The position numbers and the translations under genes are program-made. Positions 25,533 through 33,506 of a stretch of 64,000 bases of DNA are shown in pieces. This DNA comes from Gamsiella multidivaricata. Lineage: Eukaryota; Mortierellomycota; Mortierellomycetes; Mortierellales; Mortierellaceae. The stretch's first letter is position 1. Every line of letters starts with the position of its first letter. Below the pieces are notes generated by a model, which was not told where the DNA came from, did not search any database, and saw nothing but the letters and a program-made list of their open reading frames with translations. The stretch covers positions 124,001 to 188,000 of the forward strand of contig NW_026251714.1 of the NCBI RefSeq assembly GCF_025024155.1. Direction: 5' to 3'.

Positions 25533-27598
<2,066 letters not shown>

Positions 27599-27720: not shown

Positions 27721-27732
27721 TGACGTCACGTG
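27721..27732. promoter_or_regulatory. CRE palindrome overlapping an E-box, RBBP4 promoter
   Basis: TGACGTCA (27721-27728) is the perfect ATF/CREB-type site and overlaps CACGTG (27727-27732), a bHLH E-box. They lie 123-134 bp upstream of the RBBP4 start codon, directly against the transposon target-site duplication. Sites are seen in sequence; use by a factor is inferred. Confidence 0.45.
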
Positions 27733-27740
27733 CTCAGCTT
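27732..27740 (+). repeat. Left 9-bp target-site duplication of the MULE
   Basis: GCTCAGCTT here is repeated exactly, in the same orientation, at 33498-33506. A 9-bp duplication is the size MULE transposases make. Confidence 0.88.
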
Positions 27741-27775
27741 GAGTGGCGCGAATCTGAGCACCTATTACCATACCG
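27741..27775 (+). repeat. MULE left terminal inverted repeat
   Basis: 35 bp beginning GAGTGGCGCG and containing ATCTGAGCACCTATTACC. It pairs, as reverse complement, with 33463-33497 without gaps: 26 identities, with the inner 24 bp matching at 21 positions. Confidence 0.87.
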
Positions 27776-27881
27776 GGCGAAGGGCGTTGCAGATTGGAAT
27801 AAAGATCATTGCTTGTTTACTTCATTGCTCTTCCTCAACCCTTCCTTAATGTATCGCCCTCCCTATATTCATGCCTCATTA

Positions 27882-30717
27882 TTACTGGCACTTTCGTCCA
27901 GCTCCAGAGGTGTGCAATCCTTGTGAATCATGAACCACGCTCCTCAAGCTGGCAACGAAATCTTGGAAATATCCCAGACTGCACACTCTTTGCTTGTTGG
28001 TAAGAGACACAGCAAGTCTATTCCAGAGATCATGCGTTTCATTCTCGCAGTCAGCAAATGCTTTTGCTTTCTGTTGCTCTGTCCTGCGTCTTTCCTCCTC
28101 TCGCGCCATCGCTCGTTGGGCGTATAAAGCTTGCCTAACAAGAGGAGGAACCCAGTCGGGAAGGTCTAGGACTGGAGGTTCGGCTGCCTCATCTTGCATG
28201 TCACCGTGACCAGGGCCCAACCCTCTCTCGACAACTCGCTCGGGCTGGAGGTAATAGTCAATTCGCACATACGCGTACAGCCGATCAAGAAGGTAGATAT
28301 GCTTACATGGCCTTCGGCGCCTCTCGTTATCGAGGCATGTGCATGACTGGAGAAGTCCCTCAGGCTCATTCACATTCAACCCGTCTGTAGGCTTGACACG
28401 GACACTATATTCGACAGTGGGGACTTGGAACGACTTGACGATAAACTGGAGACAAGAAGAAATGAGCCGCTGATGTGAATAATCATCCTTCAATAGCCCA
28501 GTTTACCTGCTGCAATTAAATTATAAAAGCACCCTATTCTCGTGTAGCAACGGTGTTACCAACCACAAGGCGCGTTCAAATGGAATCGCCTTCGCTTTCA
28601 TTTTTCTTGACTTGTCTACTTTCGTAAGCGGGGGTGGCGCTAATCCATTCTTGATCTTAAAATACTCGACGCGGAAATCCGCGTCAACTGCGCCTTCCAA
28701 AAGATAAACCAGATAGTCTGCCCGCACGTTCCGTTCGTGGCCCAGGTGTTTCTGCTTTAAGGTCTTGTGCCAAGATTCTACCCAGTTATTGGTGGTGACT
28801 TCTTGGCCATCCTATTATCAGGGTGTGCGCATCAAGTTCAGTTTCCAGAGCCCTTCCACCTATTGTTCATCTTTGCTCACATCAAGAACCCTTACCATTC
28901 TATGATATGCAATCCAGCGCTCCACATGTTCGTTGAGCCAACGATTCTCGATATACTCGATTAAAGTAGTTGCTGTGGGGAATTTTCTTTTAAATGCTGC
29001 CCATAGGCGCTCCTGATCCACCGCAGTCTTAGCCTTGCGAATCTCTTTCAACAGTGGTCTCATCTGCATGCATTCCGCAACCTAACAGTTATTGACCGAA
29101 GTGGTACAGGTAAGAGGCGTTACGTTAATACCTTGCGAATATGCTAAGTGACTCTGGAGAATTGCAGCAAGCAACATGGCTGTAGAAACCCACCGAACGC
29201 TTCTCCTTCAAATGCTTCTCCCAGAGCTGGGCGACATGGAAGTCGCAATAAAAAATCCTTGTGTGAGGGAATATGCTCAAGATAGCAGCAGACTCAGTTG
29301 GGGCACAGTCCACCATGAATGCTGCTGTTCTCAGACCACACTCATTTGTCAGCCATCGCAACCAATCTTGAATGTTATATCTATGTGTTATAGCGGCGCT
29401 GGTCAATCGTCGCATAAGGAAGCACCAAAAAAGTTGGGGTAGAAGGTAGTAAATGCAACGTACTGTGATTCAGAAGAGCTGATCAGAAAGGCGACTGGAA
29501 TGCCTTTCTGTACAACTCGATCCTTTACCAGCAACGTGAACAAATAAGCTGATTTGATAGTAGTGCTGCCACCTGATAGCAATATCTTCTTGATACTTGT
29601 TACAGTCTTGTGGGTGAAGTCCATACAATAAATGGAGTTGTTGTCAGCCATCATCTTGCAAATAGTGAAGAAAGAATATAGAAAGCGGATTGTCAGCATC
29701 TACAGCATCTCAGTGATGATAATAAACAACGCTTTGCACAATATACCTCAAGCTGAAATGATGTGCACCAGGTAATCAAAAAAAAGCCATCAACCTGCTC
29801 TCTCGGTTTGTGGTCGAACAGGGTCTTTCCTCCCTTTTCTCTAATGGCTTGGAGCCATAGCTCGATACTCTTCACAAGATCCTTGTCCTTCTGCGATTCC
29901 CTTATTCTCCGCCTGTAAAGAGCAGCCCGAGCATCGTTCTGGCTGATGGCTAGAGCAGGTGGGGGTATAACATTGCCGCTTTGCATCTGCTTCAGTAAAT
30001 TTAAAAAGAGCAATTAGCATCGATTATGGCATATCTTGGCGAATAACATACACAACATGCACATAGAAGACTCACGTCTTGCACCAACTCTTGATCAGGA
30101 CGTAACTTCTTCTGGATCGACTTCCAATCATGGCCTTGATCAACCTGCTGTTGGAGCCATTCTCGGTCATTTTGTCCGCAAGGCAATTTCGCTCGTGCTG
30201 TGGCAGACGTGTCACGATTATGCTCCCAATGATATTCGACTTGAATCTCGTCTTTTCCAATGATTTTCCGCACAGTGAGGGATGCCTTGCAATCTGCTCC
30301 AACAGAAATGATTCCGTTCTTGATTTCTTTTGGTTTATGCCAACGGCGGCATATGTACTGCAGGCTCCAGTCAAACTCAGGCTTTCTGCCAGGGCGACTC
30401 GCATGTGTGGCAAGGTGGGAGGACCTGTTGGGCAAGAGGGTTTCATGGTCCTGCCTGTAAAATTTAGAGTGGGCGGCAGTTCGGTACTGCCAATCATATG
30501 CTCGCCTCTCCTGCGCCCAAAAAGCGCGAAACTCTTGGCAAGTGAAGGTAAGAATCAGGGGATTGACTGATTGAGGTGGAATGGCAAAAGGTGTGATGGG
30601 ATCCAGGGGGTTGACGTCGGGAGGGGCAAAATGAAGGATGTCCTTTATTCTCAGAACAATGGGCAGCATGGTTGACAGTGCAGAGGGAACGGGAAGAGAA
30701 AGCACCATAATAGACAC
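27882..30717 (-). CDS. MULE transposase (DDE, SWIM zinc finger)
   Basis: Seven exons: 30717-30076, 29986-29747, 29699-29464, 29398-29176, 29081-28896, 28811-28560, 28487-27882 (794 aa). The N-terminal DNA-binding region has a Cys/His-containing segment (WSLQYICRRWHKPK ... GCKASLTVRK-like ... YHWEHN), similar in layout to FLYWCH/WRKY-GCM1 fingers. The MULE DDE core shows YCMDFTHKT (first Asp), AAFMVDCAPTES (second Asp), then FYCDFHVAQLWEKHL, and TNNWVESWHKTLK (Glu). The C-terminal SWIM motif is CTCLDNERRRRPCKH. The exon 4 donor is the weak point: joining at CAT/GTTGCT keeps frame, whereas the better-looking GTATTA donor at 29131 would shift it. A NAGNAG acceptor at 29990-29987 leaves a one-residue ambiguity. 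Confidence 0.87.
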
Positions 30718-30995
30718 GGCTCTAATTTATAGATCTCTGTTAATGGCAATGCATGATGGCTGATATCGGCGTTTTAAAGGTTGAAATGGCAATCTTGTTC
30801 GCGTCTGCCTTAAGACTATGTAACATCGACCTCATGTGATAGTTGTCAAGAACTTGACATGAAAGGAGAAGAAAAGATAGAATTTTATTGTTGTCTACAG
30901 AATAGACTATCAAACTGAACGGAATATGTACATGAATATGTGTTGGACTAGAGGCGAAGGGGGACGAAGACGGGAAGGGTGATGCTGGAGGAAGT
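30718..30995. promoter_or_regulatory. Divergent promoter within the MULE
   Basis: 278 bp between the two start codons of the transposon genes. It is AT-rich with no coding sequence and must hold control of both if each is expressed. Confidence 0.4.
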
Positions 30996-33378
30996 ATGCC
31001 TTCTTGTAATCGCAAATGCTGCTTACTAAAAAACCCTAAAAAAACCCTAAAAACCCCTAAAAACCCCTGTGAGAATCACACTGACGACGACATCGATGGC
31101 GAACCTGGCAGTTCCAGTAGTCAGTTCCTTTATGCCTTTCTACGACACCTTTATTCGGGCAATCCTCCCACGAATCGAGGCGTTGGCAAACTTGTTACTG
31201 GCTTCATTGGACGATTACGGGAGCTGAACTTGTACACTCCCCTAAGGCTAACAAGTACTATACGCCAGAGTACACCTTTCTCACCTTCGGAGCTAGTACG
31301 GAGTGTGTCTACTCAGCTGGGTGCTGAGCTCAAACGTATTTATCGCAATGGAGCGATTGAACTACAAGAGCAGGTAACAAGTGTATTTTTTGAATGAATT
31401 CTGTAGCATGACATTAGGAATTTTTCTAATACAAGATGGTCGCTTTATCAACAATAGCTCAAGGGTTGGCAAAAAAAAAGGCAGACCGGAAGTAGTTGGA
31501 TACGACTTGGAGATCCATAACAAGTTGACAGCCGTGGAGAGCTTTCTGGCATTCAACATGACGAGCGGCAACAGGCGGAAGATTGCCCCACTATCTTCGG
31601 CAAAGGATGGTTTTGTCTCGTTCTCGGAGCGAGAGCTCGTCACTTTATGCTGGAAACGACCGCTCCTTAAAACTCGGATTCTGGAGTTGGCAAGGGTCAC
31701 ATTTTCCAGCTGCTCCTCGGAGGATGACGTGAAAACCATATGGTTACCAGATCAAGAGCCAGGGTTCCTAATCAAGAGCCTTATTGTAGATGTCGCTCCT
31801 ACTGGTCTCACTGTTCGGCAACGAGGGAAGCTGGGATACCGAGGCGCAATCACCAACATGTCCCTTCTGGATGCGAGGAACCATTTGTCTGCCATCCGTG
31901 ACCCCAACTTTGACCCTCGAAATTACAGCCTCAAGGGATATGTTCTGACAGGATCTTTCCGCACCAATGGCTTCAGGCTTCAGCTGTCTGCCTACAAGTT
32001 GAAGGAGTTGCAAGCGGTTCGATATCGGAGGCTGGCAGATGCCATTTTGCCCCCTCGCCTGACGTCAACGGTTGGAGGTACCGACTATTACTTGCAGGAG
32101 ATCCGGAATGTCGTAAAGACCAAGGACGATGTCACTCGACTCTGGCCGCATTGCCCTCCAGAAAAAATCAAGATTTTGTGTCTGGATATTGGTCAAGCCT
32201 ATGTTGTAGCTGGAAGCGCCTTCCTACCAGATACAGACCGTCCGATCAACGACAAAAAAGGAAAGGGGCGTGTCGTGGCGACCTCTGCTTTCCCAACCGC
32301 TACTACCCACAGGGCCACTCCTGCCTCTTTGATCTCCACAGCCGCCCCTGGGACGAACTCTACTACCTCTTTGATGGATCCGCCCTATCCAGAGACATAC
32401 TACAACATATCTGTTAACCAGAAGGCCGTGTACCAACCCACATTCAAGTTCCGAAGATGGACAGAGGAGCAAAAACGGGTGGTACCGGAAGGTGCAACTC
32501 AATCGATCCAAGAGATTGAGTCAGACCTCCCACCGCTCCGCGGGCCAGATGCAAGCGTTGGGCAGTACGTTCAGCAGCTCGAGATGGTCGAGCAGCGCTT
32601 GAGCAGTTTTTACAATGGCTCGAACAGGCTCTACCAGAGCCACGAATGGGATGCCCAACGTGCACGGGAGGAGGAGTACCTGGTAATCGCAAACAGTTTG
32701 CTGAGGTCGGTGGGGGGATCGATAGGCGCCAAAAGAGACGAAAAGAACATGGTGGTGATTGGCATTGGACTTGGTCAATTCAGCAGTTGCTCGCGCCTCA
32801 CATCACTCCACGACTCCTTTCTGGCATTCTTTGTGCCCCTGGTAAGTGTTTCACTCCTCTGGCGATTTCTTGTCCCTACGACAGATAGTTCATTTATTGA
32901 CTTTCACACATTTCACCGCCATCGCTCTTTAGGCCAGGTCGCTTAGTTACATCGTTCTTGGTGTTAATATTACAGCTCCAAGAAATGCCCCCGTTGTCAC
33001 ACATTTGTTTCCCAGGTGTCTATCCGAAGGCTCTTCTGCGAGGACTGTGGAACTCCATTCCACAGGGATGAGATGGCGGCCCACAACATGGTGAATGCCG
33101 TCCAAGGACATCTGCTCCACCAACAGCGGCCTTTGTACCTGCAGCCGGTAGACGAGGAGGGAAATTATCCGTGGATGAAGACGGAGACCACCGGGGGCGC
33201 TGAGGAAAAGGACCACCAAGCTTTTGAGGGAACCAGCAGTAGCAGTAGCAACATCGACAACTGCACTCTCGATAGCGTCCAAGACAGCACCCAAAAGGCA
33301 TCCAAGAGAAAGGCTTCGGAGGAGGAGGAACAGATCATGGCGATCCTCCAGAGGACGCGCCGACCCCGCGAGGAATAG
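30996..33378 (+). pseudogene. Fanzor (eukaryotic TnpB-like RuvC nuclease), frame broken
   Basis: Three blocks. 30996-31373 encodes a helical N-terminal region rich in Leu/Arg ending RNGAIELQEQ. 31408-32841 encodes the central and RuvC part, with KGYVLTGSFRTNGFRLQL and RuvC-I ILCLDIGQAY (catalytic Asp), then VVIGIGLGQF at the place of RuvC-II. After an intron (32842-32932; GTAAGT...TTTAG) the frame runs ARSLSYIVLGVN and is then lost. From 32968 another frame gives YYSSKKCPRC, then FCEDCGTPFHRDEMAAHNM: the TnpB zinc ribbon plus RuvC-III Asp. A Ser/Glu-rich tail ends at 33378. The break near 32966 is about a 4-base loss if the ancestor had the usual NEYY-type join. The join of blocks 1 and 2 also does not keep frame with any intron I can see. 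Family: RNA-guided DNA nuclease. This copy looks inactive unless the breaks are sequencing errors. Confidence 0.78.
31026..31068 (+). repeat. Telomere-like CCCTAA-type degenerate repeat
   Basis: Four units of 8-10 bp, of form CCCTAAAAA, inside the start of the Fanzor reading frame (residues KNPKKTLKTPKNP). They resemble CCCTAA telomere repeats but carry extra A's. Probably chance or a short internal element repeat. Confidence 0.5.
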
Positions 33379-33462
33379 TAGCCAGACTAGTTTTTTTTGT
33401 GTGCTGCCCCCACACTCCCCCTGATGATTTCCCATGTCGTATGCGACGCTTAGAAGCCACTT

Positions 33463-33497
33463 CGGTAACGTAATAGGTGCGCAGATGTGCGGATTTC
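33463..33497 (-). repeat. MULE right terminal inverted repeat
   Basis: 35 bp, inverted partner of 27741-27775. It lies 84 bp after the Fanzor stop codon and abuts the right target-site duplication. Confidence 0.87.
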
Positions 33498-33506
33498 GCT
33501 CAGCTT
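33498..33506 (+). repeat. Right 9-bp target-site duplication of the MULE
   Basis: GCTCAGCTT, identical to 27732-27740. It is 26 bases past the stop codon of the RFFL-like gene, so the element entered that gene's 3' UTR. Confidence 0.88.

Follow-up and report, generated by a model that had tools for sequence, protein, structure and literature searches.

A stretch of 64,000 nucleotides of the Gamsiella multidivaricata genome (contig NW_026251714.1, positions 124,001 to 188,000; hereafter the window) holds a Mutator-like (MULE) transposase gene and, pointing away from it, a gene with the motifs of a Fanzor nuclease. The locus raises the question whether the nuclease belongs to the transposon and, if so, what part it may play in the movement or retention of the element.

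Positions 27741-33497 are a single transposon with matching ends, a duplication of the target site (TSD) and two divergent genes. Its ends and the first of the two genes are as follows.

27732..27740, no strand: left 9-bp TSD, GCTCAGCTT, from direct comparison of the flanks
27741..27775, plus strand: left inverted repeat (TIR), 26/35 matches to the right end
27882..30708, minus strand: MULE/SWIM transposase of 785 aa in 7 predicted exons, based on splicing without internal stop and on Pfam
33463..33497, minus strand: right TIR, 26/35 matches to the left end; a 28-base pattern of this end occurs in 6 places in a genome search and in 0 in the control
33498..33506, no strand: right 9-bp TSD, GCTCAGCTT, from direct comparison of the flanks

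The 35-bp inverted repeats and the perfect 9-bp duplication claimed in a sequence-only reading of the window are both borne out, as 20000 random pairs of 35-mers drawn from the region never reached 26 agreeing positions and the TSD is identical at both flanks. Further copies with the same ends were also found, on contigs C13 and C128, each with a TSD of its own. Taking all families together, the TSD agreed at 9/9 positions in six insertions (the window copy, C13, C128, the family A copy on C93, C131 and C93b), at 8/9 in three (C126, C124 and C159) and at 6/9 in C47. Exon borders and the left ends of the elements were placed by hand. Family A has no clear TIR by eye, and the left TIR of the C13 copy is partly deleted. 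A search with the left-type TIR pattern at up to 2 mismatches proved unspecific (11 matches versus 8 in a reversed control) and was rejected. A WD40 gene lies at window positions 25840-26606 on the minus strand, with open frames running on to 26963; its best Pfam match, the THOC3 propeller, is under its cut-off and WD40 is above the cut-off. As this gene is directed away from the element, the element may have inserted into its promoter region.

The seven predicted exons of the window transposase join into an open frame of 785 aa. The SWIM domain scores just over its Pfam cut-off (19.7 bits, cut-off 19.6), but the MULE domain PF10551 is sub-threshold (17.2 bits versus 27.6), so the earlier assignment to the DDE/SWIM MULE transposases holds for the SWIM domain and the open frame and only at sub-threshold level for the MULE domain. 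By eye, we also spotted what we take to be DDE-like and CxxH motifs. Eight other PF10551 matches in the genome, seven of them over the cut-off, belong to MULEs without a Fanzor.

The second gene was reconstructed by comparison with sister copies of the element and comprises the following parts.

31026..31069, no strand: CCCTAAAA-like filler at the site of a loss of about 2.3 kb, which took the flap-nuclease part and the 5′ part of the Fanzor (comparison with sister copies)
31070..31373, plus strand: remnant of the Fanzor N-terminal exon (comparison with sister copies; predicted exon end)
31378..32841, plus strand: Fanzor main exon with RuvC-I (ILCLDIGQA) and the RuvC-II region (exon end predicted from a GT donor)
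32933..33378, plus strand: zinc ribbon/RuvC-III exon (PF07282), out of frame after a 4-bp loss near 32966

To judge from these frames, the window Fanzor is dead and a mere remnant of a Fanzor-like gene. The motifs read in it earlier, RuvC-I and the zinc ribbon with RuvC-III, are real and the gene is indeed divergent from the transposase, although it is not intact. On the profile check, the zinc ribbon is over the PF07282 cut-off (2.5e-08, 34.4 bits, cut-off 26.3), and it is a C4 ribbon adjoining the RuvC-III RD. The main exon stands in an open frame at 31378-32946, but the 4 bp lost near 32966 shift the frame ahead of the zinc ribbon, so RuvC-I and the ribbon no longer share one frame, and the window copy has no intact RuvC D-E-D in a single frame. 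This frameshift and the replacement of about 2.3 kb of 5′ sequence by a 44-bp filler leave only a remnant of the gene. We considered the CCCTAAAA filler as a telomere patch and rejected this, since the genome, searched at up to 3 mismatches, has just 4 matches, of which 2 overlap in the window; such a rare repeat is named filler here and not telomeric. In relatives, the RuvC D and the RD are kept and the position of the canonical RuvC-II glutamate is a glycine (VIGIGLG); an alternative E may serve RuvC-II in these Fanzors. The main exon of a related copy had 192 protein matches, with many among the matches listed coming from Mortierellaceae genera, and one scan of viral contigs recovered no viral relatives. 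Sequence searches reached none of the solved Fanzor structures and a search with a single exon gave no credible match, and a profile search of structures reached FEN1, Rad2 and EXO1 as well as LaTranC at 5.8e-04.

What the window copy has lost can be read from three sister copies, on C95, C13 and C128, which have about 2.3 kb between the points joined by the filler. Within it lie the beginning of the Fanzor and a flap-nuclease exon, the latter out of sight in the sequence-only reading because the window lacks it. In the C13 copy, exons 1-3 share one frame across the flap nuclease and the N-terminal part of the Fanzor, interrupted by two stop codons, and the C95 and C128 copies each have one stop and a split flap-nuclease frame. 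The fuller cargo is predicted, from these sister copies and from NCBI protein models, to be one fused gene for a FEN1/Rad2-like nuclease and a Fanzor. A fused query made of the C13 exons retrieved 15 proteins, which we scored by local alignment: 11 matched both FEN and the Fanzor main exon (P0149 weakly), three matched FEN and only the N-terminal part of the Fanzor (P0146, P0147 and P0148) and one (P0142) was without FEN. The genera represented were Dissophora, Entomortierella, Mortierella and Linnemannia. Among 134 proteins from two other protein searches, 2 matched both FEN and Fanzor, a number limited by query length.

Like the FEN1/Rad2/EXO1 flap nucleases, the N-terminal partner resembles FEN1 and Rad2 in a profile search of PDB structures (best E 3.2e-07 and 1.5e-06, respectively) and keeps the acidic residues, as D40, D85, E170, D172, D189, D191 and D240 are invariant in 9/9 aligned sequences. 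We assume a catalytic role for these seven residues by analogy with FEN1. Unlike those enzymes, it is fused to a Fanzor and its single exons fall under the Pfam XPG cut-offs. Homology and acidic residues are both present in the sister copies, and this region is deleted in the window. Among the papers listed in literature searches outside Repbase and most subscription journals, we recognised no report of a FEN1/XPG-Fanzor fusion.

The sister copies also show how the elements decay. The nuclease bears lesions in all four window-family copies inspected (the window copy, C95, C13 and C128), and the C95 transposase is damaged by single-base gaps when compared with that of the window. Judged by base changes, the family seems to be undergoing ordinary decay, with 90/150 single-copy differences being C>T or G>A. 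The C13 and C128 copies, with ends as in the window copy, have no transposase gene and have a deletion junction in common. One common junction with separate TSDs suggests that this cargo-only form probably moved at least twice. Two further loci were observed. One (L014, C115:408500-412500) consists of a 208-bp right end with the remainder of the element absent, and recalls the ghost loci of SpuFz1 described in the excerpts of PMC10432273/PMC11423790. The other (L013, C33:24500-29000) is a diverged relic with an internal deletion and a left end like the right TIR, and has tandem 111-bp repeats alongside.

The pairing of MULE and FEN-Fanzor is the rule in this genome and not an accident. Clustering of exon matches gave at least 98 FEN loci, a set that may include ordinary cellular nucleases, and at least 83 Fanzor and 36 MULE loci, the counts being lower bounds as scoring covered 99 of 217 candidates for Fanzor and 57 of 168 for MULE. 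A FEN exon lies upstream of the Fanzor on the same strand within 5 kb in 44/83 Fanzor loci (median gap 1.84 kb), downstream in 2 and on the opposite strand in 7. Within 10 kb of FEN or Fanzor lie 25 of the 36 MULE loci of this clade, divergent in 25/25 cases, with two of the 25, both on C159, probably being one element. A second family on C93 repeats the layout, with MULE and FEN-Fanzor divergent, at 52% identity to the window family in the Fanzor and 42% in the flap-nuclease exon. The reading that a MULE merely landed next to a Fanzor element can draw on the 39/83 Fanzor loci without a FEN exon upstream within 5 kb and on the 11/36 MULE loci without a partner within 10 kb. However, at least three of the latter (C113, C131 and C133) run to the contig end, both genes of the window lie within one pair of ends, copies with matching ends have TSDs of their own and the divergent layout recurs in other families, so that we regard such an accident as highly improbable. 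The earlier proposal of a nuclease moving together with the MULE is supported at the level of the family by these same observations, but in the window copy the cargo is a dead remnant, which could promote retention only with help in trans.

Family A shows variable 5′ truncation, which we considered as LINE-like and rejected. Seven of its 11 right-side copies (C140, C12, C111, C33, C121, C88 and C62, not C98, C131, C19 and C105) end within 4 bases of a contig end, which argues that most of the truncation is assembly breakage. Half-elements on separate contigs were observed in two cases, L057/L066 (C131 with C12) and L062/L070 (C16 with C121), with TSDs alike at 8/9 positions, which may reflect breaks of the assembly within single elements.

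Regarding the insertion sites, two short motifs stand at fixed distances from the ends.

27724..27728, plus strand: CGTCA of the host DNA, part of TGACGTCAC, with a 3-bp gap to the TSD that follows, at the same offset in 13/13 and then 16/17 sites
33466..33474, plus strand: TGACGTMAT-like motif of the right end, reading TAACGTAAT and lying 23 nt from the terminus, a degenerate pattern without chance control

In the left flanks of the window family and family A, CGTCA occupies positions -17 to -13 relative to the left end in 13/13 cases. Families B and C added four sites, three with CGTCA and one with TGTCA. In total, CGTCA stands on the Fanzor's strand, 3 bp before the TSD, at 16 of 17 insertion sites in four families, a count that covers FEN/Fanzor-linked families with left ends placed by hand; the background rate in the window is about 0.00095 per position. 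The wider insertion-site consensus is GTGACGTCAC. Two loci were left out of the count: L063 (C159:309130), the end of which is truncated though CGTCA is nearby, and C122, the left end of which is not placeable. A deletion derivative of family A (L055, C126:731500-735200) borders a family B element on its left side, and the two seem to have used the same CGTCA. The TGACGTMAT-like motif lies 22-24 nt from the right end in 8/8 ends of four families, as counted with a degenerate pattern and without chance control. Family A has a weak version of it, and the window and C128 copies an altered one. No TGACGT-like motif was seen by eye at the left ends of these families, though TTACGTCA occurs close to the left end of the diverged C33 relic. 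Folding of right-end RNA was weak (z -0.68 to -2.07), and we give it no weight in favour of a guide RNA.

We consider it probable that the window element represents a composite Mutator-like transposon of Mortierellomycota, the fuller form of which carries a MULE transposase and a divergent FEN1/Rad2-Fanzor fusion gene and inserts at CGTCA. To judge from its frames, the window copy is one with an open transposase and a dead nuclease. In this composite transposon, the transposase or a bZIP-type factor of the host would bind TGACGT in the right end and in the target, and recognition at both places would fix the insertion site and the orientation. Less surely, RNA from the right end running into the flank might guide the fused nuclease, which might cut the empty site after it has healed, leading to copy-back of the element, and the flap nuclease might trim ends or RNA. 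CGTCA is compatible with a role in retention or homing, and targeting by the transposase or a host factor would be the simpler reading.

TnpB elements have the TAM on their left side, at a set spacing and in a set orientation. CGTCA is likewise on the Fanzor's strand and left of the element with orientation and spacing fixed, and MULE-less copies have it too, so that CGTCA (or CGTCANNN) might be the Fanzor's own TAM. Insertions elsewhere would then be lost after excision because their empty sites could not be cut, and the motif would mark retention and not targeting. We hold this to be rather unlikely, as 3 bp separate CGTCA from the TSD, against at most one free base for the three Fanzor TAMs named in the excerpts of PMC10432273/PMC11423790, and a TGACGT-like motif also lies inside the right end, which fits a DNA-binding protein better than a TAM. 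Apart from that 3-bp gap, CGTCA stands where a TAM would, and we therefore keep a reading in which it could be insertion motif and TAM at once: the flap nuclease-Fanzor protein would be Mutator-type cargo and each insertion would make its own guide and an empty site that can be cut. This reading is a doubtful one; if true, it would give the copy-back strategy of IS605 a eukaryotic counterpart based on a DDE transposase.

At the other extreme, the Fanzor gene might be a passive passenger, captured once, amplified by the MULE and without part in its movement. The nuclease broken in all four window-family copies inspected beside an open window transposase fits such a history, as does the decay pattern of the single-copy changes. 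Against it stand the fused FEN-Fanzor models in several genera and the acidic residues kept in all aligned flap-nuclease sequences, and in the C95 copy the transposase has suffered likewise; we would give a passenger only a limited chance. Among these readings, the composite transposon inserting at CGTCA is the one that we prefer.

In IS200/IS605 elements, the TnpB gene points to the right end, and the strand that it is on has a fixed motif to the left of the element; their TnpA is an HUH enzyme and there is no TSD. The elements described here are alike in the direction of the nuclease gene and in the fixed motif on the left of the same strand, but differ in having a DDE-type MULE, a 9-bp TSD and a motif 3 bp before the TSD. 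Fanzors were reportedly also the subject of a study by Jiang et al. in 2023. According to the excerpts of Bao and Jurka 2013 (PMC3627910), Fanzor1 occurs in the MuDr superfamily elements ROr-4, PBl-3 and MCi-4, which have 9-bp TSDs and are said to encode no MuDR transposase. As in these, a Fanzor1-like protein is encoded here within MuDR-type TIRs and 9-bp TSDs in an early-diverging fungus; unlike these, the present elements encode their transposase as well, join the Fanzor to a FEN1/Rad2-like nuclease and insert at CGTCA. Judged by the same excerpts, Fanzor1 in MuDR-type elements was already known, and the co-encoded transposase, the FEN fusion and the CGTCA sites are what is added. With SpuFz1 of Spizellomyces, as far as the excerpts of PMC10432273 and PMC11423790 describe it, the elements share a nuclease with RuvC and zinc ribbon, conserved ends and a conserved motif upstream of the left end, there CA; they differ in that no transposase was found between the ends of SpuFz1 elements and the motif there adjoins the end. 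The excerpts of PMC10432273 and PMC11423790 contain no mention of a flap-nuclease-Fanzor fusion, and nothing on it turned up in PMC10711439.

The elements described here bear on the question of how Fanzors serve the elements that carry them. They are repeated, bring a transposase and a Fanzor together with a second nuclease fused to the latter, and insert with a predictable motif and orientation. With motif and orientation predictable, each copy would come with a defined guide and target, which makes the idea of retention or homing directly testable. The FEN-Fanzor fusion may also provide an RNA-guided nuclease that brings its own flap nuclease.
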